A stretch of DNA of 47,331 nucleotides from a candidate division NC10 bacterium CSP1-5. Lineage in GTDB: Bacteria > Methylomirabilota > Methylomirabilia > Methylomirabilales > CSP1-5. The notes under the pieces were generated by a model. It was not told the DNA's origin. It worked only from the letters and a program-made list of their open reading frames with translations, and made no database searches. Positions 1-10,322 of the stretch are shown here, in pieces; positions within the stretch are counted from its first letter, which is position 1, and each line of letters begins with the position of its first letter. The position numbers and the translations under genes are program-made. The DNA is taken from positions 1-47,331 of the forward strand of contig LDXR01000019.1 of NCBI GenBank assembly GCA_001443495.1, given 5' to 3'.

Positions 1-1
1 G

Positions 2-667
2 ACCTTCTTCCTCGACGAGGTGGGCGAGGTGCCGCTCGCCGTCCAGGGGAAGCTGCTTCGGGTCCTCGAGGACGGGGAGTTCGAGCGGGTGGGGGGCGTG
101 AAAACCTTGACCGCCGACGTGCGCCTGATCTGCGCTTCGAACCGCGACCTGAAGCGGGACACGGAACGGGGGCGATTCCGCGAGGACCTGTACTACCGTG
201 TGAGCGGGATCCCGATCCACCTCCCCCCATTGCGGGATCGGCGCGAGGACCTCGTGCCGCTGGCCGAGTTCTTCCTTGCCCGAACGTGCCGGAACCTCGG
301 CGTCGGAAGGAAAACGCTTTCCGACGGGACGGCGGAGGTGCTGGACCGGTACACTTGGCCCGGCAACATCCGCGAGCTGGAGAATGCCGTCGCGCGCGCC
401 GTGGCGCTCTCGGACGAGGATACGCTTACTCCCGCCGACTTGTGCCTCGGGCTCGCGCAGCCGGAGGCGCCGGTCTCCCCGGCCGACATCGAGGGGGAGC
501 GGTTCCACGAATCCGTGCGGGAGCACAAGCGTGCGGTGATCCGACGGGCGATCGCCAAGGCGGGGGGAAGCAAGTCGCGGGCGGCGGAGATCCTCGGGTT
601 GTCGCCGACCTACCTCTCCCGCCTCCTCCGGGTCCTCGGAGTGGAGGGAAAGGGGAACGGCGCATGA
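2..667 (+). CDS. sigma-54-dependent response regulator/activator, C-terminal part (5' end outside window)
   Basis: The reading frame is already open at base 2 and the gene is cut by the window edge. About 221 residues remain. It begins with the Walker B region of an AAA+ domain (TFFLDEVGE), followed by the sensor segment (RLICASNRDL, about residues 40-50) and the FREDLYYRV and LPPLRDR motifs of sigma-54 activators. It ends with a Fis-type helix-turn-helix at about residues 175-215 (GGSKSRAAEILGLSPTYLSRLL). Such proteins hydrolyse ATP to open promoters bound by sigma-54 RNA polymerase. The sensory N-terminus is missing, so the signal cannot be told. The codon use matches the chromosome. Confidence 0.93.
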   Translation, partial: TFFLDEVGEVPLAVQGKLLRVLEDGEFERVGGVKTLTADVRLICASNRDLKRDTERGRFREDLYYRVSGIPIHLPPLRDRREDLVPLAEFFLARTCRNLGVGRKTLSDGTAEVLDRYTWPGNIRELENAVARAVALSDEDTLTPADLCLGLAQPEAPVSPADIEGERFHESVREHKRAVIRRAIAKAGGSKSRAAEILGLSPTYLSRLLRVLGVEGKGNGA

Positions 668-709
668 CGCGGGGGGCCTCCTCGCGGTAAAATCACCTTT
701 CTGCCGCGC

Positions 710-786
710 GCGCCCTTAGCTCAGCTGGATAGAGCGCTTGACTTCGGATCAAGCGGCCGGGGGTTCGAATCCCTCAGGGCGCGCCA
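710..786 (+). tRNA. tRNA-Arg (anticodon UCG)
   Basis: A full 77-nt cloverleaf can be drawn. The acceptor strands GCGCCCU and AGGGCGC pair, followed by discriminator G and an encoded CCA (784-786). The D arm is GCUC/GAGC. The anticodon stem CUUGA/UCAAG encloses the loop CUUCGGA, which gives anticodon UCG (arginine, CGA codons). The T arm is GGGGG-TTCGAAT-CCCTC. It lies 42 bases after the sigma-54 activator and is followed directly by a terminator. Confidence 0.96.
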
Positions 787-797
787 GCAAAAACAAG

Positions 798-826
798 GGG
801 TTACGGTGAGAGCCGTAGCCCTTTTT
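798..826 (+). terminator. rho-independent terminator after tRNA-Arg
   Basis: A 9-bp stem (GGGTTACGG at 798-806 with CCGTAGCCC at 813-821, one G-U pair) has a 6-nt loop and is followed by TTTTT. It lies 11 bases after the tRNA CCA end. From here to 1000 no gene or other structure is visible. Confidence 0.8.
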
Positions 827-1000
827 CTTTGAAAAACGGACAAATGGACGTTTTATAGAAGTTTGGAATGAAAGTCGCTCGCATCTCTTCCCCAAATCAA
901 CCATGCGGAATGGCGAGGACTGGAATTTTCCCTTCCTGCGGAAACCATTTCCTCGAACTATCGACCCGCGAGGGTTATATCTGAATGCGGGAGCCGCCCG

Positions 1001-1477
1001 CTACTTGGCAGGCGGAGGCGCGGCCACCGTCATTCCATGACGCCGGAAAACCTCCATCATCTTCGCGCGGTCAGGCGGTCCACCGGCGGTGGCATTGATT
1101 ACTTCGGCAGCTTCGCGGAAGTACGCGGGGCCCATGATCGCAGGGGATATGACGGCGAGCTGTTTCACATCCTCGCTGCCGAGATTGTCGAAGCGGTGCA
1201 CCGCGCCTCGGGGGATGCACAGTGCCTGCCCGGGACCAACCTCAATAGGCTTGCCATCAACCGTCCAGGTGAGGACGCCCTCGATACCGTAGAGGGTCTC
1301 CTCGTAGGCGTCGTTCTTGTGGGCCGGCGCCGCCAGCTTCTGCCCGGCGGGGACGAGAACCTCGAACACCGACATGTTGTTGTTGGAATCATCGCCAGTG
1401 AGGAGGAACCGGATCCCCAGCGGACCAATATTGATGGTCTCTTCCGAAGGATTGACTCTGGTCATACGCTGCTGCAT
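1001..1477 (-). CDS. cupin-domain protein
   Basis: A 158-residue single-domain cupin. The first cupin motif is visible in the middle (PAHKNDAYEETLYGIEGVLTWTVDG, read in parts) with candidate metal ligands His and Glu. The second is PRGAVHRFDN with His. Cupins of this size are metal-dependent enzymes or small-molecule sensors; the substrate is unknown. The ATG at 1477 is chosen because GAGGGGG lies 5 bases upstream. A longer form starting at 1576 is open and would overlap the small gene upstream in an ATGTTGA junction, so the start is not certain. No partner gene is evident. Confidence 0.8.
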   Translation of the reverse strand: MQQRMTRVNPSEETINIGPLGIRFLLTGDDSNNNMSVFEVLVPAGQKLAAPAHKNDAYEETLYGIEGVLTWTVDGKPIEVGPGQALCIPRGAVHRFDNLGSEDVKQLAVISPAIMGPAYFREAAEVINATAGGPPDRAKMMEVFRRHGMTVAAPPPAK

Positions 1478-1569
1478 AACAGCCCCCTCTTTGAGTAAAG
1501 TTGATCTACTCACCGTCGCCATCCGGAGTTCGAGATTGGCCGGCAGACCGCCCGCCCGGTTCATGGGGG

Positions 1570-1728
1570 TCAACATCCGGTATCCACATCCGCCTTAAGG
1601 AACGCGCGTTCCAGAAACGAATTCAACGCGTCCAGCCACCCGGTGGGGCCGGCGCTCTCCGCCGGGTCCGGGCGCGAGTTCGGGGTCTGTTTCGGGTCGG
1701 TGCTGTTGCTGTCGTCGCTGTAGCTCAT
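1570..1728 (-). CDS. small hypothetical protein
   Basis: A 52-residue frame starting MSYSDDSNSTDPKQ, polar and proline-rich in its first half, with a short amphipathic end (WLDALNSFLERAFLKAD). GGAGAG lies 3 bases before the ATG at 1728; an ATG at 1788 is also open. Its stop overlaps the longest possible start of the cupin gene (ATGTTGA), which is compatible with an operon. No family is recognised. It may not be a gene. Confidence 0.3.
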   Translation of the reverse strand: MSYSDDSNSTDPKQTPNSRPDPAESAGPTGWLDALNSFLERAFLKADVDTGC

Positions 1729-1788
1729 GGACTCTCCGCCGTCAGGACCATGCCTACTCGATTCGCCTGATTCTGCAAAGGAACCCAT

Positions 1789-2153
1789 ATGTCCTTAGGA
1801 TACACGTCCGGAGGGTTTAGATTCCCGTTTCGGACGGTCAAAGTATTAACCTTGTGGGACAACGTGAGGTGGGCATTACGAGGGCCAGGTTTATCGAGTG
1901 GTCTCGATAGCTATCCCCCGCAAAACCAAAAGGTCCCTTGGCCTCGCGCCAGGTTCCCTTTTTCGCGAGATTGGACCGTGGGGCTCACATGATGGCAGCG
2001 GGAATTGGGACCCGCTTAATCTAATTTTTCCAGTTTATTTTGAGTTGATGACTCGATTTCCGTCCGTTCATTTAGAAGACGTTGGGGCGGAATTTCACCA
2101 TTGATTCGGTTATCGGGGGGGAGTGGACCACTTAGCGGCCCAACTCTCCTCTA
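1789..2153. other. gene-free stretch
   Basis: No convincing reading frame on either strand and no RNA gene seen. Composition is more AT-rich in 1990-2100 than in the flanks, marking the transition into the accessory patch that begins at 2154. Confidence 0.5.
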
Positions 2154-2204
2154 TGAGGGGGTGGTGGGGAAACCCGTGGGGGTTCGAGTCCGGAGGACTC
2201 GAAC
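2154..2204 (+). repeat. degenerate copy of tRNA-Leu 3' half, with inverted T-arm (attachment-site-like)
   Basis: Bases from TGAGGGGGTGGTGGGGAAAC onward repeat the sequence at 4113-4145: anticodon-loop end, anticodon-stem 3' strand, variable arm and T-stem of a tRNA-Leu(GAG). Unlike the copy at 4112, the five Gs of the T-stem are intact here. Instead of an acceptor stem and CCA, the T-arm GTTCGAGTCC (2182-2191) is followed, after 3 bases, by its exact inverse GGACTCGAAC (2195-2204), giving a perfect 10-bp hairpin. It marks the left edge of the toxin-antitoxin patch. Confidence 0.65.
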
Positions 2205-2355
2205 AGGCGAGGGCGCCGACCGATGGGCGGGGACACTCCTCTCCCGCATCCCGGAAGTGATTCAGGAATGTCCCCGGTGGTGGATTGACGCCCGGATTGC
2301 CTTTTTTCATGTTTTGGCCACGAAAAACCCGCTGCGGGATTCTGGCTTTCGGTGT

Positions 2356-2700
2356 TCAACTCGCTCGACGTCCCAACCCTTCGGCGATGAGAGATACAAC
2401 CAGGGTGTTCAAGCTCACCCCTTCTTTCTCGGCCTTGGCGGCGAGCTTGGCGTGGAGGCTTTTCGGAACCCGCTGGACCCATTTCCCGCTCAATCCCGCC
2501 GAGGGAGCAGGGACCGGATCTTTGAACTCCTTTGCGGTGGCCAGCCAGGAGCGCAGCGCGTCGGAACCGTTCTCCACCGCCGCCTCGATTGTTTCGCCGT
2601 CGGCGATGCACCCGGGGAGGTCGGGGAATTCAACCAGCCAGCCTCCGCCTTCCGATTTCGAGAGGCGGCGGATCGTGAAGGGGTAATCAATCTTTTTCAT
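2356..2700 (-). CDS. hicB: HicB-family antitoxin
   Basis: 114 residues in two parts. Residues 1-60 are the partial RNase H-like fold typical of HicB (YPFTIRRLSKSEGGGWLVEF, then PDLPGCIADGETIEAAVENG). Residues 72-110 are a ribbon-helix-helix DNA-binding end (VPKSLHAKLAAKAEKEGVSL). HicB binds and neutralises the HicA RNase and represses the operon. The gene follows hicA and overlaps it by 14 bases, so the order is toxin first, as in classical hicAB. The palindrome at 2936-2957 is the likely operator. It is the first module of the patch 2154-4163. Confidence 0.92.
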   Translation of the reverse strand: MKKIDYPFTIRRLSKSEGGGWLVEFPDLPGCIADGETIEAAVENGSDALRSWLATAKEFKDPVPAPSAGLSGKWVQRVPKSLHAKLAAKAEKEGVSLNTLVVSLIAEGLGRRAS

Positions 2701-2929
2701 GGGTCACCTCGTCGGTCAGTTCAATGAACTTTCTCACGTATACCGGCTTGATTGGTTTTCGCGCCGGGACCGTAAGCTTTGCTCCCGAAGGATGGCGGAA
2801 CGTAACGTGACTGGTTTTCGGCTGCCGGTACTCGATTTTATATCTGGCCGCACCGGTTTTGAGGTCCTCGATCCTCCAGCCCGTCGGATTGTTTCGCATC
2901 CTGACGAGGATCTTGGCAGCCACCGTCAT
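2687..2929 (-). CDS. hicA: HicA-family mRNA interferase toxin
   Basis: 80 residues, the usual HicA length, with the dsRBD-like fold: an N-terminal helix (AAKILVRMRNNPTGW), then the catalytic-histidine strand (TSHVTFRHPSG, His near residue 41), then VPARKPIKPVYVRKF. HicA cleaves mRNA independently of translation or with weak ribosome dependence. The ATG at 2929 lies 6 bases inside a perfect inverted repeat upstream, so the transcript leader is very short and autoregulation is likely. It is partner of the HicB at 2356-2700. Confidence 0.9.
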   Translation of the reverse strand: MTVAAKILVRMRNNPTGWRIEDLKTGAARYKIEYRQPKTSHVTFRHPSGAKLTVPARKPIKPVYVRKFIELTDEVTHEKD

Positions 2930-2935
2930 AGGGAA

Positions 2936-2957
2936 ATAGTATCAATGGCGATACTAT
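2936..2957. promoter_or_regulatory. hicAB operator palindrome
   Basis: Perfect 8-bp inverted repeat ATAGTATC-6 nt-GATACTAT just upstream of hicA. Position and symmetry fit binding by the ribbon-helix-helix end of HicB. The role is inferred. Confidence 0.65.
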
Positions 2958-3042
2958 GATTCAAGTGGGTATCGATAATTTTCATGTGGCTCAAATGTGT
3001 CCAATTTCCATGGAAGCCTACGGAAAACTTCCTAAGTCTGCC

Positions 3043-3121
3043 AAATGTGTCATGCTGGCATGGTCGAAACTATTCGATAAGTTAAAGGATTATAGTGCGT
3101 TATAGGGTTGGGGCTGCTTGA
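3043..3121 (+). repeat. attachment-arm repeat, copy A
   Basis: 79 nt that align without gaps to 4037-4115, about 70% identical by eye, sharing blocks such as AAATGTGT, AACTATT, TTATAGGGT and a final GCTTGA or GGCTTGA. In copy B the last bases run straight into the tRNA-Leu anticodon loop; here they run into the second toxin-antitoxin module. Each copy thus closes a unit of about 1 kb. Read as the element-side arm of an integration site; this is inference. Confidence 0.55.
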
Positions 3122-3219
3122 AGGAAATCCGAAAGTGGATCCCGCTCAAATTGATTGGTTTCCATATCGGGTCTAGAGGAAAAATTTCCATGTTGACCCC
3201 GGACCTCGGAGCACTTGTG

Positions 3220-3243
3220 GTTGTATCTCATTTGAGATACAAC
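3220..3243. promoter_or_regulatory. operator palindrome of the second toxin-antitoxin module
   Basis: Perfect 11-bp inverted repeat GTTGTATCTCA-TT-TGAGATACAAC, 34 bases before the antitoxin start at 3278. A further half-like TATCTC follows. It fits binding by the RelB-type N-terminus of the downstream antitoxin. The role is inferred. Confidence 0.65.
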
Positions 3244-3277
3244 TTATCTCGTATATCGAAGAAGGGGGGACTGCCTA

Positions 3278-3727
3278 ATGGCACGGACCGCTATGATCCA
3301 CGCCCGGACGGACGCGGGTCTCAAGGCCGAAGCAGAAGTGATCCTGAAGAGCCTTGGACTCTCGTACACGGAGGCCATCAACCTGTTCCTCAATCAGGTT
3401 CGGATGCGGAAGGGCCTTCCGTTCCCGGTGGAAATCCCTGACTCGGTTTCCATGGCCGTGATCGAGAGAGGACGGCGGCGCTTTATTCTGAAGAAGTCCC
3501 TCAGGGTTCGCATGGGAATCGAGGGAGGCGTCTGGGTCTATGAATATCCTTCCTTGGGAATCCTGGCGTATGGCTCCACGCAGGAGGAGGCGTTGGCTGC
3601 CTTCCGGACGGATTTTGCATCGGCATGGGATCAGGTTGCGAACGAGGTCGATGCGAAGCTCACCCGGGATGCGCGGAGTCTGAAGAAACGGCTCCTTTCC
3701 CTCGTGGATAAGGTCGAGGCCGCCTGA
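3278..3727 (+). CDS. antitoxin with RelB/DinJ-like N-terminus and HicB-like C-terminus
   Basis: 149 residues. Residues 1-55 read as a RelB/DinJ ribbon-helix-helix antitoxin (ARTAMIHARTDAGLKAEAEV, then GLSYTEAINLFLNQV). Residues 70-125 (GIEGGVWVYEYPSLGILAYG, then STQEEALAAFRTDF) resemble the HicB partial RNase H-like domain. The DNA-binding end is therefore N-terminal, the reverse of the HicB at 2356. GAAGGGGGG lies 8 bases before the ATG. Its TGA overlaps the next ATG (ATGA-type, 3727), so antitoxin and toxin are coupled. The likely role is to neutralise the downstream protein and repress from the palindrome at 3220. Confidence 0.75.
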   Translation: MARTAMIHARTDAGLKAEAEVILKSLGLSYTEAINLFLNQVRMRKGLPFPVEIPDSVSMAVIERGRRRFILKKSLRVRMGIEGGVWVYEYPSLGILAYGSTQEEALAAFRTDFASAWDQVANEVDAKLTRDARSLKKRLLSLVDKVEAA

Positions 3728-4014
3728 TGGGTGGACCCCGGAAGACGCGGGCCGTCCGGGCAGCGCTTCTCTCGAAGGGTTTCATCGCCGACGACACTCA
3801 CCACGAGATGTTCTGGCTTGTCGTCGAAGGAAGGAAAACGTCGATCCGTACCCGGATCAGTCACGGTGTCGCGGAGTACGGGGACAACCTTCTGGCACTC
3901 GTTGCCCGTCAGGCCGGTTTGAGCAAGCAGGAGCTATACCGCCTCATCGACTGCCCGATGGATGCCGAAAAACTGAAGCGGCTTTTGGTCGAGCGCGGTA
4001 AAGTTCGTCTATAA
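3727..4014 (+). CDS. probable HicA-like toxin of the second module
   Basis: 95 residues. An N-terminal helix is followed by a strand with paired histidines (KGFIADDTHHEMFWLVVEG), then KTSIRTRISHG. The early helix, the His in a strand and a basic hairpin recall the HicA dsRBD-like fold, but the rest (GDNLLALVARQAGLSKQELY, then DCPMDAEKL) is different and longer. It follows the antitoxin with one-base overlap. The toxin call rests mainly on gene pairing, size and this weak resemblance. Ribonuclease activity is inference. Confidence 0.6.
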   Translation: MGGPRKTRAVRAALLSKGFIADDTHHEMFWLVVEGRKTSIRTRISHGVAEYGDNLLALVARQAGLSKQELYRLIDCPMDAEKLKRLLVERGKVRL

Positions 4015-4036
4015 CCGAAAGTTCCCTGAATCCAAT

Positions 4037-4115
4037 AAATGTGTAATTCCGGCATTGTTATAACTATTTGAATTAATAAAATATTATGGGATTTTATAGG
4101 GTGGGAGCGGCTTGA
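4037..4115 (+). repeat. attachment-arm repeat, copy B
   Basis: Counterpart of 3043-3121, 79 nt, no gaps. It is AT-rich (TTAATAAAATATTATGGGAT region) and ends at CTTGA, where the tRNA-Leu 3' half starts. This is the layout expected of an integrated element end: element arm, then crossover in the anticodon loop, then restored tRNA tail. Confidence 0.6.
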
Positions 4116-4163
4116 GGGGGTGGTGGGGAAACCCGTGGGGTTCGAATCCCCCCTTCGGCACCA
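4112..4163 (+). repeat. 3' half of tRNA-Leu(GAG): putative attachment site, not a whole tRNA
   Basis: 52 nt reading as anticodon loop TTGAGGG (anticodon GAG), stem strand GGTGG, a leucine-type long variable arm, T arm ending TTCGAATCCCCC, acceptor strand CTTCGGC, discriminator A and CCA. The 5' half (which should end CCACC) is absent; the upstream sequence is the AT-rich arm repeat. One G of the T-stem is lost relative to 2154. Integrases often recombine within tRNA genes and leave such 3' halves; the assignment to an att site is inferred. Confidence 0.75.
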
Positions 4164-4272
4164 TCGCAATAACCAAGGAGAGGTCCACAACGAGAGTGCT
4201 GCGGACGCGTGGATCGCGGATACGGTACATCGTGACGATTCTCGTTGACGGGAAACAACCCTCGGCAGTAAC

Positions 4273-4292
4273 ATATAAATAGCTGCTCATAT
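4273..4292. promoter_or_regulatory. possible ArsR-type operator
   Basis: Imperfect 20-bp inverted repeat ATATAAATAG-CTGCTCATAT, seven of ten positions symmetric, 14 bases before the ArsR gene at 4307. ArsR/SmtB regulators often bind AT-rich imperfect repeats over their own promoter. Weak evidence. Confidence 0.35.
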
Positions 4293-4306
4293 AAGGACAC
4301 TCTCAT

Positions 4307-4675
4307 ATGGATCCAAACATGGAGCACATACAGATCTTCTTCAAGCTCATTGGAGACTCGAGTCGGCTGAAGATCCTCTCGAGCATCGGAACGGTCGAGA
4401 AGACTGTTTCGGAGATCATCGGAGAGACGGGTCTGCCCCAGACGCTGGTCTCCTTCCATCTGAAGATTCTGAGGGAGCATCAGATCGTGCAAGCTACTCG
4501 AAAGGGAGGTCCGTTCGTCTATTACCGTCTCCAGGACCCCTCCCTCGTGAACCTGCTGGATGCTTGCGACACATACGCAAGAAGGCTCAAAGGGGGAGCG
4601 ATGGGGGACGTGCCCGATTTCGAATGGCCCCCTTGGAAGGTGATGTGCCGGATGATGCGCCGTGGGCGGCGATAG
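4307..4675 (+). CDS. ArsR-family winged-helix repressor
   Basis: 122 residues with an ArsR fold: GDSSRLKILSSIG, then the recognition region (GLPQTLVSFHLKILREHQIV) and the beta wing (RKGGPFVYYRLQD). ArsR members sense metals, metalloids or redox state and repress nearby genes. No clear CxC metal site is seen in the recognition region; the only Cys are in the last 45 residues. The tail (PWKVMCRMMRRGRR) is basic. AAGGA lies 9 bases before the ATG. Downstream are a second winged-helix protein and a SHOCT membrane protein, probably in the same operon. Confidence 0.88.
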   Translation: MDPNMEHIQIFFKLIGDSSRLKILSSIGTVEKTVSEIIGETGLPQTLVSFHLKILREHQIVQATRKGGPFVYYRLQDPSLVNLLDACDTYARRLKGGAMGDVPDFEWPPWKVMCRMMRRGRR

Positions 4676-4734
4676 GCAGCCTTGCGATCAAAACCCCTGT
4701 TTCCGGCAAGGGAAATCACGGGAAGGGAGGAGTC

Positions 4735-5049
4735 ATGGATCCTCGTGAGATGATGAAGGGCATGATGGGAGAGGGTTTCAACCCGATGGAGATGTGCAAA
4801 AACATGATTGGTTCCATCACCAAGTCGGCGGAGATGGCGGCCTATACCACCCCCGAACTTCGGGCGCGGTTCGAGGAGTGGCTCGGCCAGATCGAGACCG
4901 AGATCCTCGAATTTCTCAAAGGCCGGGATGCGGTTGCCCCGGAAGAGGTGGGAGAACATTTCAAGGTGTCGAAGGAGAGCGTTGTCTTTCTGCTTTCCAA
5001 ACTAGCCCGCGAAGGGAAGATCAAAATCAGCGCCGGAGAACGTCATTGA
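4735..5049 (+). CDS. small winged-helix-like protein, unrecognised family
   Basis: 104 residues. The first 30 are rich in Met (MDPREMMKGMMGEGFNPMEM, then CKNMIG). The middle is helical (ELRARFEEWLGQIETEILEF). Residues 65-100 look like a winged helix (DAVAPEEVGEHFKVSKESVV, then LLSKLAREGKIKI). GGAGG lies 5 bases before the ATG at 4735. The 3' end overlaps the next gene as TTGA. The Met-rich start might bind a soft metal, but that is speculation. It could be a regulator or adaptor for the ArsR and membrane protein beside it. Confidence 0.7.
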   Translation: MDPREMMKGMMGEGFNPMEMCKNMIGSITKSAEMAAYTTPELRARFEEWLGQIETEILEFLKGRDAVAPEEVGEHFKVSKESVVFLLSKLAREGKIKISAGERH

Positions 5050-5444
5050 GGGGCTCCCGGACCTGTTTTGCGGTATGGGTCGCGGCAGTGGTCCTGCTGC
5101 TGTTTCTTGGGATGGCGTATGAAGGTATTTATGGGAGGCATTATACGCATTCCTCTGCGCCTACTTGGGGAGGTTTGCCGATGGTGCCATGGATGGTTTG
5201 GGGAGGGGGAATGTGGATTTTCCCTTTCATCGGACTCTTTGTCTTTTTATTCATGATTTTCTTTAAGTTCAACCGGGTCTTTACCGGGAGCGGGCCTTTC
5301 TGCGGATGGGGAGGGCAGGGTGGCGGGAGCTCCGGCCCTCAATCCCCGCTGGACATTCTCAAGATCCGGTATGCCAAGGGAGAGATCACCCGGGAGGAAT
5401 TCGAGCGGATGAAGAAAGACATTTCCGAAGGCGGTGGACCATAG
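5046..5444 (+). CDS. membrane protein with C-terminal SHOCT domain
   Basis: About 132 residues. One transmembrane helix at residues 8-24 (VWVAAVVLLLFLGMAYEG) and a second at about 50-75 (GMWIFPFIGLFVFLFMIFF), with an aromatic and Gly-rich loop between. A Gly-rich linker precedes a SHOCT domain at about 100-130 (SPLDILKIRYAKGEITREEF). SHOCT domains are short modules often involved in oligomerisation at the membrane. No ATG fits; TTG at 5046 is chosen because it overlaps the upstream stop (TTGA) and has GGAG upstream. Function unknown. Confidence 0.75.
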   Translation: MRGSRTCFAVWVAAVVLLLFLGMAYEGIYGRHYTHSSAPTWGGLPMVPWMVWGGGMWIFPFIGLFVFLFMIFFKFNRVFTGSGPFCGWGGQGGGSSGPQSPLDILKIRYAKGEITREEFERMKKDISEGGGP

Positions 5445-5483
5445 GATGACGGGCGGCGGTCAAGAAGGCCACCGTCTTGCACC

Positions 5484-5511
5484 GGGTGCATCCTTTGCGC
5501 GGATGCAACCC
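5484..5511. terminator. hairpin between convergent genes
   Basis: GGGTGCATCC (5484-5493), 7-nt loop, GGATGCAACC (5501-5510): ten pairs with one mismatch. It sits between the SHOCT gene (+) and the universal stress gene (-), so it could stop transcription from both sides. No T tract on the plus strand. Confidence 0.45.
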
Positions 5512-5512
5512 C

Positions 5513-6208
5513 TTACGGATGTCCCGGGACCACGAGAACCGGGATCGCGGACCGATGGACCACGTGGTTTGCCACCCGCCCCAGGAAAGCCTCCGCCATG
5601 TATCCCCGCCCCTGGCCGCCGATGACGAGAATGCTGTAGCTCCCTTTCCGGATCTTCTCCACGATTAACGGGCCCGGGCGGCCGAATTCCACCTCCTTGT
5701 TCACCACACTGGCCCCCCACTCCTTGAGTCGCACTTCGAGTGCATCCAGCCGCTCCCGGTCGATCCGGTTGAATTCATCGAGACGGTGCGCGAGGTGGGG
5801 TTGAATCCTCACCGGGTCTTGCACGTGGAAGAGGGTCCCCTCCGGAGGGTGGGTGTGCGCCACGACATGTTCCAGGTAATGGAAGGCCCGCTCGGCGGGT
5901 TCGGAGTAATCGGTGGCGAACAGCGGGTGGCGGAAAATGTCGCCGCAGAGGACTTCGCACTTCTTTTCCCCCTTCTCTCCTTCCAGGATCGTGATCGGGA
6001 TCAGCAGAACCAGTTGTTTCTCCTTGTCCTTGAGGAGTGGTTCGACAAGGTTTTTCATCGAGATGTAAAGCCCTCCCACGTCCCGGACGTTCATCACATG
6101 GATAAGGGTTGCGCTTTCCGCTCCCGCAGTCCGAAGGGGACCCACGCAGCGCAGCAGACACATGGACGCGTAAGACAGGTCCATGGCGATCAGCAGGTTC
6201 TTGAACAT
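5513..6208 (-). CDS. universal stress protein, tandem UspA with a shortened first domain
   Basis: 231 residues. The N-terminus (MFKNLLIAMDLSYASMCLLR) begins a UspA domain, but only about 85 residues precede the start of a second one (FRHPLFATDYSEPAERAFHY). The second is complete and ends with the nucleotide-site-like segment GGQGRGYMAEAFLGRVANHV and SAIPVLVVPGHP; the usual Ser/Thr after the last Gly is Arg. Tandem Usp proteins are normally about 280-300 residues, so the first domain seems to have lost its nucleotide-binding half. The ATG at 6208 is chosen over an upstream extension of low quality. It lies just after the ACR3 gene on the same strand and may be cotranscribed. Confidence 0.85.
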   Translation of the reverse strand: MFKNLLIAMDLSYASMCLLRCVGPLRTAGAESATLIHVMNVRDVGGLYISMKNLVEPLLKDKEKQLVLLIPITILEGEKGEKKCEVLCGDIFRHPLFATDYSEPAERAFHYLEHVVAHTHPPEGTLFHVQDPVRIQPHLAHRLDEFNRIDRERLDALEVRLKEWGASVVNKEVEFGRPGPLIVEKIRKGSYSILVIGGQGRGYMAEAFLGRVANHVVHRSAIPVLVVPGHP

Positions 6209-6233
6209 CGTACCCTCATTCCTCCGAGCGAGA

Positions 6234-7310
<1,077 letters not shown>

Positions 7311-7324
7311 GGAGATCCCATGTT

Positions 7325-7346
7325 ACAATTACATATCGCCAGTTGT
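7325..7346. promoter_or_regulatory. likely operator between acr3 and arsR
   Basis: Imperfect inverted repeat with arms ACAATT and AGTTGT (five of six symmetric) in the short AT-rich gap between the divergent acr3 and arsR genes. It is a natural site for the ArsR product to control both. Inference from position. Confidence 0.5.
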
Positions 7347-7364
7347 CAATTTGATGGAGGTGCC

Positions 7365-7796
7365 ATGTCCCTGCGGGATTACGAAGTGGTGATGAAGTCG
7401 GTGGCCGATCCGACACGGGTCCGGATCCTCAAGCTCCTCGAAGCGGGGGAAATGTGCGTATGCCAGGTCGTCGCCGTCCTCGAACTCAGCCAGTCCACGG
7501 TCTCAAAGCATCTCTTTCTGCTGAAGATGGCCGGGCTCGTCCGGGAGCGGCAGGAGAAGAAGTGGGTCCATTACGCCCTCGCCGGTTCCGGAGGATCCCC
7601 GTACGCAAGGAAGATGCTCGCCTCTTTGAAGGGATGGCTCAACGACGATCCGGTGGTCGAGCGGGACCAAAAACGGGGATCGCTGGCCCGGGAAATCGGG
7701 CCTGCCGCGATTTGCGAGCGGGGGATGACGATCCCGGCACGGCGCACCGCGGCGTTCTCCCCGGCCCCGCGCAAAGTCGCAGCCGGATCGAAATGA
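7365..7796 (+). CDS. arsR: arsenic-responsive repressor ArsR
   Basis: 143 residues. Winged helix of ArsR: DPTRVRILKLLEAGEMCVCQ carries the CVC pair that binds As(III) or Sb(III) in E. coli-type ArsR, followed by LELSQSTVSKHLFLLKMAGL and the wing (RQEKKWVHYAL). GGAGG lies 6 bases before the ATG at 7365. It is divergent from acr3 and followed by a CxxC protein and an ArsP-like permease, so it probably represses both directions. The last 40 residues are an unmatched, basic, Ala/Pro-rich tail. Confidence 0.93.
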   Translation: MSLRDYEVVMKSVADPTRVRILKLLEAGEMCVCQVVAVLELSQSTVSKHLFLLKMAGLVRERQEKKWVHYALAGSGGSPYARKMLASLKGWLNDDPVVERDQKRGSLAREIGPAAICERGMTIPARRTAAFSPAPRKVAAGSK

Positions 7797-7809
7797 CGCG
7801 GAGGAATCC

Positions 7810-8055
7810 ATGGAGATCGCCATCCTAGGCACCGGTTGTCCCAAGTGCAGGCAGACCGCCGAGGTGGTCCGCCAGGCCGTCGAACAGGCGGGCGTCGACG
7901 CCACGATCCACAAGGTCGAAGACATCAAGGAAATCATGAAGTTCAAAGTGATGACGACTCCGGCCGTCGCCTTCGACGGCCAGGTGAGGATTTCCGGCAA
8001 GGTTCCGACGGTGGACGAGGTCAAAGCGCTCCTGGCGCACGATGGAAAAGCATGA
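7810..8055 (+). CDS. thioredoxin-like small disulfide protein (MTH895/TM0996 type)
   Basis: 81 residues with a thioredoxin fold in minimal form: MEIAILGTGCPKCRQTAEVV has the active CxxC (residues 10 and 13). The cis-proline region is MTTPAVAFDGQVR. It starts 13 bases after arsR and overlaps the permease by ATGA. Such proteins are often encoded beside DUF318/ArsP permeases and may reduce or pass metalloid thiol ligands to them; the exact partner reaction is not known. Confidence 0.88.
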   Translation: MEIAILGTGCPKCRQTAEVVRQAVEQAGVDATIHKVEDIKEIMKFKVMTTPAVAFDGQVRISGKVPTVDEVKALLAHDGKA

Positions 8056-9185
8056 GCGAGGGCTGTGAAAAAAATCCCGCCGGAGGATCCGGGCCGGGGG
8101 CGAGCTGCTGCGAAGGAGCGGGACCCGGGGAAGCGTCGGTTACGACGGCGGGGGTCGATCCCCGGACGACCGCGAAATATTTCGGCAGCGGGGTCCTTGC
8201 CCTTGGAATCTGGTGGCTGGTGTACCAGGGTCTTTTCCCCTTCGCGAAGTGGTTTACCTTCTCCCTGCTGACCCTGACGCCGGGGTCGCATCTGACATCG
8301 GCCGTACAGTTTTTCGTATTCGAGGCCCCGAAGATCCTGATGCTCCTCACCCTGGTCGTCTTTGCAGTTGGGGTCGTCCGGTCCTTCTTCACGCCGGAGA
8401 GGGCCCGTCGGATCCTCGCCGGGAAGCGGGAGTCGGCGGGGAACATATTGGCGGCGTTGCTGGGCGTCGTCACCCCGTTCTGCTCCTGTTCGGCGGTGCC
8501 CCTTTTCATCGGTTTCGTCACTTCCGGCGTGCCGCTCGGCGTGACGTTCTCCTTCCTCGTTTCCGCGCCCATGGTCAACGAGATTGCCCTCGTTCTCCTC
8601 TACGGCCTGTTCGGCTGGAAGATCGCCGCCGTCTACGCGGGGACGGGGCTTGGGATCGCCATGATTTCCGGGTGGGTCATCGGGCGCCTGGGGATGGAGA
8701 GCCACGTGGAGGAGTGGGTCTACGCCGCCCCGGCGGGCGGCGACGAGGAAGGCGAGGTCCTGAACGTCTCCTGGCGGGACCGCGTTCACTTCGGACTCGA
8801 TTCCGTCCGGGACATAATCGGGAAAGTGTGGCCGTACGTGCTGGCCGGGATTGCCGTCGGCGCCGGAATCCACGGCTACGTGCCGGAGAATTTCATGGCG
8901 GGGATCATGGGGTCGGGAGCGTGGTGGTCCGTTCCGCTGGCCGTCGTTATCGGCATCCCCATGTACTCCAACGCGGCGAGCATCATCCCGGTCGTGCAGG
9001 CCCTCCTCGGGAAGGGGGCGGCGCTGGGGACGGTGCTGGCGTTCATGATGTCGGTGATCGGGCTCTCCCTGCCGGAGATGATCATCCTCCGGAAGGTTCT
9101 CAAGGTCCGCTTGATCGCTACATTCGCCGGGGTTGTCGGGATGGGGATCCTGATCGTGGGGTATCTGTTCAATGTCCTGCTGTGA
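8052..9185 (+). CDS. ArsP-like permease (DUF318 family)
   Basis: 377 residues, about eight to ten membrane helices. After a Cys-rich soluble start (SEGCEKNPAGGS, then ASCCEGAG) comes the first helix (VLALGIWWLVYQGLF). The family motif TPFCSCSAVPLFIGFV is at about residue 140, and the second repeat has GIPMYSNAASIIPVVQ near 315. ArsP exports trivalent organoarsenicals such as methylarsenite; other members are of unknown substrate. ATGA overlap with the thioredoxin-like gene shows coupling. The last gene of the ars operon. Confidence 0.9.
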   Translation: MSEGCEKNPAGGSGPGASCCEGAGPGEASVTTAGVDPRTTAKYFGSGVLALGIWWLVYQGLFPFAKWFTFSLLTLTPGSHLTSAVQFFVFEAPKILMLLTLVVFAVGVVRSFFTPERARRILAGKRESAGNILAALLGVVTPFCSCSAVPLFIGFVTSGVPLGVTFSFLVSAPMVNEIALVLLYGLFGWKIAAVYAGTGLGIAMISGWVIGRLGMESHVEEWVYAAPAGGDEEGEVLNVSWRDRVHFGLDSVRDIIGKVWPYVLAGIAVGAGIHGYVPENFMAGIMGSGAWWSVPLAVVIGIPMYSNAASIIPVVQALLGKGAALGTVLAFMMSVIGLSLPEMIILRKVLKVRLIATFAGVVGMGILIVGYLFNVLL

Positions 9186-9261
9186 TGTGAGGAAGACGAA
9201 GACGTTGGAGATCGAGTGGAAGCATCAGGACAAGGAAGGGGCGACCTGTCTCTTTTCATGG

Positions 9262-9431
9262 GGCTCTGCAGGGACTCGAACCGGCGAGGGCGCCGACACC
9301 CGAAGCCGCGCCGCCCTGCATTTGGCCGATGCCACCCGATGATAGTTGCGTGGCATTTGCGAGCAGCTTGCTGCGAAGCAAGTGGCGTGACCGCCGAGGC
9401 TTAAGGCGGGCGACCCCCTCCTCCGGCACCA
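9262..9431 (+). repeat. tRNA-tail-like structured remnant beside an integrase fragment
   Basis: No gene lies in 9186-9438. Bases 9272-9297 repeat 2195-2220 with one mismatch. Short hairpins follow: GCCAC/GTGGC (9331-9354), GCAGC/GCTGC (9363-9374) and CCGCC/GGCGG (9391-9409). The end, CCCCCTCCTCCGGCACCA, reads as a T-stem strand, acceptor strand, discriminator and CCA (9429-9431) of a tRNA. No cloverleaf can be closed, since the 5' acceptor is missing. Read as an attachment-site relic; a structured RNA is possible. Confidence 0.45.
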
Positions 9432-9438
9432 TTATTTT

Positions 9439-9675
9439 TCAGGCAGTTACGTGCCCCATAGTATTCGCGGAAGGGTCGTTTTGGTCGACTGTGCCACTAA
9501 ACTGTGCCAGTAGACTGCTTGTCTGATTGATTGCACGGTCGATTACCGCGACCGCGCCCTGCAAATGCCCCGGCGAAAGATGGCTGTAGCGTTTGGTCAT
9601 GCTGGCCGTTTTGTGACCAAGGATCGTCCCTATCGCCAGCAGACTGACTCCGCCCATCGCCATGAATGATGCCGC
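9439..9675 (-). pseudogene. tyrosine recombinase (integrase), C-terminal fragment
   Basis: Only the last part of a phage-type integrase is left: the catalytic GH (ILGHKTASMTKRY) and the nucleophile Tyr in TKRYSHLSP. Upstream the frame still reads AASFMAMGGVSLLAI, matching family members, then meets a TGA at 9685-9687, and no Arg-containing core or N-terminal domain is seen. It lies 8 bases from the tRNA-like CCA end at 9431, the usual position of an integrase gene beside its att site. Function is lost. Confidence 0.82.
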
Positions 9676-9793
9676 ATTAAAAACTCACGCGATACAATTG
9701 CTGGCGGCAGAATCTCATCACGACTTGGAACCGTGAAGCGGGTAGGCGGGGCCGGAATATTTTACTCGGAAGAAGTATTTTCACAATAATAGA

Positions 9794-10126
9794 CTAACGG
9801 GACTTCTCCTTCTTCATCGACTTTTTCTTGTCGGATGATTTGTATCCTCCATGACCGTGCCTTGATTGATTCCTCCTTCGTGGACCGAGAACCTTCTCCA
9901 CCAGTGCGTCAAGGTCTATGGCATCGGCACGAAACCTTTCCATATAGGCGTCAAAGCCTGACTTGAATATGATTTGTCGTCCATCCGGTCGATAGTAGAC
10001 AATTTGAGATTGCCGCCCCCTCAACCCTCTGCGTGACAGCCAGAGATAGGCATTCGCAAGGGGAAGAGATAAATACCCGTCGCTTGTAGCGGTTATGTGA
10101 CGGGGGCGAATTTCTTGCTCATCCAT
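9794..10126 (-). CDS. hypothetical protein of the integrative element
   Basis: 110 residues beginning MDEQEIRPRHITATSDGYLS. It has a mixed alpha-beta region (LPLANAYLWLSRRGLRGRQS, then IVYYRPDGRQIIFKSG) and a very basic Lys-rich tail (SSDKKKSMKKEKSR). It overlaps the excisionase-like gene by 8 bases and precedes the integrase remnant, so it was probably part of the xis-int operon. No domain is recognised; a DNA-binding accessory role would fit the tail but is a guess. Confidence 0.65.
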   Translation of the reverse strand: MDEQEIRPRHITATSDGYLSLPLANAYLWLSRRGLRGRQSQIVYYRPDGRQIIFKSGFDAYMERFRADAIDLDALVEKVLGPRRRNQSRHGHGGYKSSDKKKSMKKEKSR

Positions 10127-10322
10127 GTCTTGAACTCTCGCCCGTGGTGAACGTCTTGTGCGCCCGGATGAATGCAACGATCTCCTCCCCGTCGAACCGG
10201 ATGACACGCCCGAACTGCACGGATGGCAGTTTTCCCTTCTTCGCCATGATGTATACGTGGGACTTAGACACCTGGAATCTCTTCGCAACCTGGGCTGCCG
10301 TGAGCGGTGCCTTCGTCATCAC
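10119..10322 (-). CDS. excisionase-like helix-turn-helix protein
   Basis: 67 residues: TAAQVAKRFQVSKSHVYIMA then KKGKLPSVQFGRVIRFD, the pattern of HTH_17/MerR-type excisionases (AlpA/Xis). The C-terminus reads EEIVAFIRAHK. GGAGAGGTGAAG lies before the ATG. Xis proteins bend DNA and direct integrase towards excision. The gene heads a minus-strand set with 9794 and the integrase fragment at 9439, which together look like the decayed recombination module of an integrative element. Confidence 0.85.
   Translation of the reverse strand: MMTKAPLTAAQVAKRFQVSKSHVYIMAKKGKLPSVQFGRVIRFDGEEIVAFIRAHKTFTTGESSRHG

Follow-up and report, generated by a model that had tools for sequence, protein, structure and literature searches.

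The first kilobases of contig LDXR01000019.1 of the candidate division NC10 bacterium CSP1-5 (47,331 nucleotides were analyzed, hereafter the window) contain two toxin-antitoxin (TA) pairs flanked by two 3' fragments of tRNA-Leu(GAG), at positions 2154-4163, and recurrent end sequences divide this DNA into two units (968 and 994 nt by the borders used; Table 1). An initial annotation had described two different TA pairs between a tRNA-Leu(GAG) 3' half and a damaged copy of it, in units of 967 and 994 nt; the coordinates and the match to a consensus half bear out this layout, the second length stands, and the first is now 968 nt. Equally, the integrase that it reported as absent from the patch is not found among the open reading frames (ORFs) there, and the units contain no integrase or transfer genes, only TA pairs. 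The first pair combines HicA and HicB domains in overlapping genes, as in HicAB type II TA systems, with the HicA match below its cut-off. The second pairs a RelB/DinJ-type antitoxin with a 95-residue partner (no library family above cut-off) that is a candidate toxin from gene order; it does not qualify as a RelBE type II system, because the partner matches no RelE family.

Both units end on the right in a related arm. The 105-nt arms that precede the anticodon-loop core CTTGARGG (3020-3124 and 4014-4118, ending in CTTGAAGG and CTTGAGGG, respectively) are 68% identical without gaps, and their local alignment, which puts in two small gaps, scores 40 against a best of 24 in 300 shuffles. With up to 3 mismatches allowed, TTATAGGGTKGGRGCKGCTTGA matches the window only at 3100 and 4094 and was met in none of 100 shuffles; the three copies of AAATGTGT in the window (about 0.4 expected) share one strand and all belong to the arms. 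Chance similarity was rejected on the shuffle scores, the pattern control and the new profile matches given below. The two arms cease to be alike at the anticodon-loop position from which the tRNA half extends: the unit 2 arm continues into a full tRNA 3' half, and no tRNA 3' half follows 3121. The sequence of 79 nt that had been proposed to close each module, at 3121 and 4115, is thus real as a closing sequence and longer than stated (105 nt). The intergenic DNA that holds the arms has a GC content of 34-41%, versus 59% for the TA genes.

Table 1. Features of the TA units and their ends (window coordinates, unless stretch L135 of the CSP1-8 genome is named)
Feature	Position	Strand	Evidence or remark
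Terminator-like stretch TTGGCCTCGCGCCAGGTTCCCTTTTT	1938-1966	+	4 mismatches in 29 to the stretch adjoining the L166 fragment
Left end of unit 1, a tRNA-Leu(GAG) 3' half truncated in its T arm	2154-2191	+	38/38 to consensus half
Left-end segment with terminator-like stem	2224-2307	+	89% over 84 nt to L135 9338-9255 (unit 3)
HicB-family antitoxin, 114 aa	2356-2700	-	PF05534 E 3.2e-11, PF15919 E 7.2e-10; above Pfam cut-off
HicA-family toxin (HicA-like), 80 aa	2687-2929	-	PF07927 E 7.3e-5, below Pfam cut-off; overlaps hicB
Right arm of unit 1	2986-3121	+	Ends in core CTTGA; 77% over 136 nt to L133 94-229
Repeats in right arm of unit 1	AAATGTGT at 2993 and 3043; GCTCAAAT at 2989	+	
Core CTTGAAGG, unit 1/unit 2 boundary	3117-3124	+	One mismatch to CTTGAGGG
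Proposed left end of unit 2	3122-3175	+	GCTCAAAT at 3144-3151; no tRNA half or terminator
RelB/DinJ-type antitoxin with extra C-terminal part, 149 aa	3278-3727	+	TIGR02384 E 3.2e-15, above cut-off; PF04221 E 4.1e-10
Partner protein of unit 2 (candidate toxin), 95 aa	3727-4014	+	Adjoins antitoxin gene
Right arm of unit 2, core CTTGAGGG	4014-4118	+	Alignment and profile evidence
tRNA-Leu(GAG) 3' half, anticodon loop to CCA	4111-4163	+	96% to 54-nt consensus half
Unit 3, on the CSP1-8 contig with the same locus	L135 9343 to about 8336	-	About 1 kb

The arms recur in one other genome, that of Deltaproteobacteria bacterium CSP1-8, which carries the same locus (L063). A sequence-only profile (R1) built from the two window arms matches nothing else in the window, and in CSP1-8 it has five matches: the two known arms and three new ones (E 6.2e-18, 9.2e-10 and 7.9e-6), which are an independent test because they are absent from the model. 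With strict filters, no arm was found in 93 other genomes of the phylum (match in 1 of 94), and a further scan of this kind gave an arm in 1 of 41 genomes; laxer filters gave one in 1 of 3, namely CSP1-8. A second profile (R2), extended by the tRNA half and by two new arms and run with laxer filters on 26 genomes, finds strong arms in two, the window's own and CSP1-8; 22 of the other 24 match by tRNA-Leu-like 3' halves or weakly, some of the weak matches (E 0.002 or worse, for example in G020, G006, G032 and G030) extending into arm positions, and two have no match. The five arms align with MAFFT without internal gaps over 105 columns (48-76% identity; cmsearch puts gaps in the weakest one), four of the five run into a tRNA-Leu 3' half, and three have a complete and distinct TA pair, predicted from family matches or gene order, directly adjoining. 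The core CTTGAGGG is common to unit 2 and the CSP1-8 stretches L133 and L134. The contig of the L133 arm begins 127 nt upstream of the arm. A 269-nt repeat, 88% identical between its copies, lies near two of the CSP1-8 arms (L133 681-947 and L134 7381-7647).

Searches of viral, plasmid and phage collections yielded no arm and no unit, the one plasmid match covering only the tRNA half. Of 95 genomes, 14 other than that of the window match a 22-nt arm pattern with up to 2 mismatches; these matches were put down to chance, nine of the 14 reading TTCTTGGGNNGGAGCAGCTTGA and the reversed control pattern matching 16 genomes. Thirteen further fetched stretches were given only a profile scan for arms. 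At 18 stretches around an intact tRNA-Leu(GAG) gene (17 from relatives and one from the window's genome), a second half downstream is represented only by matches of 11-14 nt.

The search of related genomes for the arm, proposed in the initial annotation as a check, thus located three further places in CSP1-8, one of which is a third TA unit. Unit 3 has the order tRNA-Leu 3' half end (22 nt, TCGAGTCCCCCCTTCGGCACCA), left segment, ribbon-helix-helix gene, PIN-domain gene, arm, and 26 nt of a tRNA-Leu half. Its two genes overlap, the PIN-domain protein matching PF13470 (E 1.3e-17) and the ribbon-helix-helix match falling just below its cut-off. By the borders chosen, the three units measure 968, 994 and about 1,008 nt. 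Right arms are present in all three (the core of unit 3 being altered), left ends are partial in units 1 and 3, and in unit 2 the left end is marked by a motif only. That motif, GCTCAAAT, was noticed post hoc; unit 2, unit 3 and the L166 fragment of CSP1-8 all have it at their left ends. The L166 fragment is followed by a terminator-like stem and GACTGGCTCAAATCTGGCTCGCG, nearly the same stretch being found in unit 3. Two copies of GCTCAAAT exist in the window, at 2989 and 3144, the latter 23 nt past the core. This number is unremarkable, as about 1.0 would be expected in 47 kb on both strands, but both copies fall, within 165 nt of each other, in 2901-4200, where the expectation is 0.03. Although the motif is post hoc, its copy at 3144 supports 3121 as the left boundary of unit 2. 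A tRNA half is unsupported at this left end (score 7, reached by 412 of 1000 shuffles). Between two tRNA-Leu fragments of the same CSP1-8 stretch (L135 6836-8306) lie two ORFs of 221 and 152 aa without a Pfam match, the former membrane-protein-like by eye, so that this segment is a possible unit without a TA pair.

The tRNA fragments of the window are 3' ends of tRNA-Leu(GAG), as first annotated, and 28 nt of the truncated copy are identical to 4113-4140, but they are not of the type of the genome's own tRNA-Leu(GAG), which is encoded on another contig: their anticodon stem has the GGTGG of family f3, which belongs to the same order, and that of the genome's gene reads GCGTG. ARAGORN calls neither fragment a tRNA, the sole tRNA that it finds in the window being tRNA-Arg(TCG) at 710-786, and there is no intact tRNA-Leu(GAG) beside the units. 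The terminator-like stretch upstream of unit 1 is of a type that comes after a tRNA-Leu-like 3' fragment in CSP1-8, and is possibly the left end of an emptied unit. At 2191, a second kind of tRNA-like fragment, apparently inverted, joins the T arm of the tRNA-Leu; 26 nt of it (2195-2220) recur with 96% identity at 9272-9297.

A search for Phage_integrase domains in the window's genome returned two matches, to the NCBIfam models for XerD (above its cut-off) and XerC (just below); neither is an integron integrase. The search did not list a minus-strand remnant at 9439-9663, the C-terminal 74 aa of a tyrosine integrase, which follows a tRNA-3'-end-like stretch ending in CCGGCACCA at about 9432; the region 9254-9684 is probably another dead island. 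An excisionase-like HTH_17 protein is encoded at 10119-10322. In CSP1-8, L166 9049-9960 has an integrase catalytic remnant, about 4 kb from a tRNA-Leu-like fragment, overlapped by an ORF that is transposase-like by eye.

Together, these features suggest that single TA pairs were once moved or stabilized as tiny mobile elements. In the favored reading, which is given a probability of about one half, each unit is a very small att-flanked integrative element without an integrase of its own, on which a tyrosine integrase would have acted at the anticodon loop of tRNA-Leu. In its fullest form, unit 3, such an element would consist, from left to right, of the last part of a tRNA-Leu(GAG) 3' half, a terminator, a left arm, a TA pair, and a right arm of about 105-136 nt ending, where intact, in the core CTTGA(R)GG. 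As in tRNA-targeting islands, this is the layout of an attP that is opened at its core in the anticodon loop and has an arm on either side. The spare tRNA 3' half and terminator brought by the element would restore the gene entered. The arms may bind an integrase, and recombination at CTTGARGG may have moved the units one at a time; since they have no integrase of their own, movement, if any, would be in trans, and units could be gained, lost or stacked in tandem by recombination of the core. TA pairs would be retained because their loss is toxic, and the pair would make loss of its unit costly; here it is all that remains between the unit ends. The units of the window are probably immobile now, and recent movement is unproven.

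A number of observations count against this reading. Upstream of 2154 the 5' half of the tRNA is missing. One base differs in the core of unit 1 (TTGAAGG), and the core of unit 3 deviates further, with CTTCCCGGG in place of CTTGAGGGG; such differences would hinder recombination unless they arose by later mutation. Unit 2 begins without a tRNA half, its left end showing only the arm motif. No TA pair was seen at the L134 arm among ORFs of at least 60 aa, no family search having been made there, and other tRNA-Leu fragments of CSP1-8 bound longer segments of ordinary genes (about 1.4, 2.9 and 5.2 kb). No integrase with matching arms was found by the family search, which covered the window's genome and not CSP1-8, and the two integrase genes near such places (window 9439-9663 and L166) are remnants. 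An empty site was not found either, and the DNA to the right of unit 3 is not the same in the two genomes. All copies of the arm, finally, come from two draft assemblies, both of uncultured bacteria.

The differing cores of units 1 and 3, the longer segments and the lack of an empty site keep alive the main rival, a less than even but serious prospect, according to which larger islands at tRNA-Leu accreted in tandem, like cis-mobilizable elements (CIMEs), and lost their integrase and most of their cargo, so that the units never moved at their present size; right ends with TA pairs would survive because toxin release punishes deletion. The altered core of unit 3 raised the weight of this account and lowered that of the favored reading. 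Decay would also agree with the missing left tRNA half of unit 2, the truncation of several tRNA-Leu fragments, the nearby integrase remnants and the fragments that bound longer segments, and a series from insertion through CIME to accretion is described in a review (PMC5704250). Against it stand the compactness of unit 3, which fits a terminator, a left arm, a TA pair and a right arm into about 1 kb with little besides, and the similar sizes of the three units by the borders chosen; no leftover island genes were seen between the ends and the TA pairs. Homologous recombination without an integrase, in which dispersed tRNA-Leu 3' halves serve as repeats for RecA-type exchange and so shuffle TA segments, is improbable: shared repeats permit such exchange, and several fragments lie in the same orientation on one CSP1-8 contig, with matches on four more (C1, C8, C10 and C41), yet a conserved, position-fixed arm of 105-136 nt that is not tRNA, and the three different TA pairs beside it, would be left unexplained. 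Even less credence is given to an ordinary cluster of unrelated TA pairs in a variable region with tRNA debris, the arms being old duplicated intergenic DNA; TA pairs often gather in variable regions and the function of the arms is putative, but the recurrence of arms at five places, four of them adjoining a tRNA half, and their presence in only 1 of 94 genomes of the phylum do not fit such a cluster, and the third unit disfavors it.

The initial annotation had gone further and likened the site to an integron at which TA units are captured serially. The arms as recurrent unit ends, and a third unit with both ends matching, agree with capture; there is no attC, no integron integrase and no 5' half, no empty site was found, and unit 3 has an altered core. 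Serial capture in trans has partial support and is one of two live readings, the other being decay of larger islands. Its strongest form, a cassette-like system in which anticodon-loop sites of tRNA-Leu replace attC or dif and a tyrosine integrase acting in trans collects, stacks and spreads compact units of about 1 kb with standard ends, also between species, is a tentative and rather doubtful extension. If true, it would add to integrons and dif modules a third route by which single TA pairs become minimal travelling units, and would make it possible to test directly whether TA pairs serve as selfish cargo or stabilize tRNA islands.

Known systems resemble the units in part. Integron cassettes of about 1 kb can likewise hold one TA pair each and stand in tandem, a likeness that is functional only. 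No attC core pair (RYYYAAC/GTTRRRY) is present in the four regions tested and no consistent hairpin is formed: of the four arm strands folded, only the minus strand of arm 1 stands out from its shuffles (better than 195 of 200, z -2.05), the others having z -0.9, 0.6 and 0.6. Tycheposons are tRNA-associated cargo islands, some with little but cargo, of different sizes and hosts. CIMEs, described for decayed integrative and conjugative elements and integrative and mobilizable elements (IMEs), are likewise flanked by att sites, devoid of integration and transfer genes and stacked in tandem at the end of a target gene (PMC5704250). Compared with CIMEs and accreted islands, the units here are about 1 kb long, contain only a TA pair and recur as several units and places, at a site without a tRNA 5' half and with putative mobilization.

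The dif modules (pdif) of Acinetobacter plasmids are also small, lie between recombination sites and are moved in trans, and one of them, the 768-bp 'add' module, has a TA pair as its sole cargo (PMC6449649). Their ends are 28-bp dif sites rather than tRNA halves and arms, and the units described here lie on chromosomal-type contigs instead of known plasmids. A dif module was rejected, the best dif matches having 9-12 mismatches, about the shuffle mean; the dif sequence used was of the E. coli type, and a strongly diverged dif could be overlooked with it. The displaced 3' tRNA fragment and the anticodon-loop crossover are shared with the tRNA-targeted islands of Islander, in whose table the anticodon loop is a standard crossover site (2083 of 3919 islands; PMC4383910). 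An integrase and an intact tRNA gene, both required by Islander, are missing here. A TA unit bounded by tRNA halves was not found among the literature matches listed. The nearest mechanism is thus the CIME and the nearest scale the dif module, and the units, which lack both dif and attC sites, are read as CIME-like in mechanism and as comparable to dif modules in cargo and size.

The first 9 kb of the window look foreign to this genome, through recent transfer or a chimeric contig, given their near-identity to CSP1-8, the dissimilarity of the two genomes at the other locus compared and the existence of a second tRNA-Arg(TCG). Window 1-9432 aligns to CSP1-8 contig LDXO01000025.1 with 27 differences, only five of which fall in 1-9007 (99.94% identity) and 22 in the next 425 nt, and beyond 9432 there is no similarity. 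At tRNA-Leu(CAG), where 10 kb from each genome were compared, the sequences are dissimilar at the limits applied, and so are the tRNAs not the same. The second tRNA-Arg(TCG), on another contig of the window's genome (G000:C2, L170), is a different gene from that at 710-786, which is 90% identical to tRNA-Arg(ACG) of CSP1-8. The choice between transfer and chimera matters for any claim on host or mobility; the unit structure holds under both, because CSP1-8 shows it in its own assembly.

Relatives of the 95-residue partner in the genome collection include an identical protein in CSP1-8 and, in two other genomes, one with 47% identity and one with 51% over 35 residues; the plasmid collection has none. 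Its predicted model is of low confidence (pLDDT 61), has no structural match at E 0.001 and does not bear on its family. The RelB part and HicB have relatives in the plasmid collection, and HicA has one on a viral contig (43%); in profile scans of the fetched stretches, neither this contig nor genome G025, which has a HicAB relative, shows an arm. Searches of PDB sequences with the PIN and HicA proteins gave no match. Directly to the right of the tRNA half, window 4307-7310 encodes an ArsR-type regulator and small ORFs, along with genes that by eye resemble those for a universal-stress-like protein and an arsenite permease.

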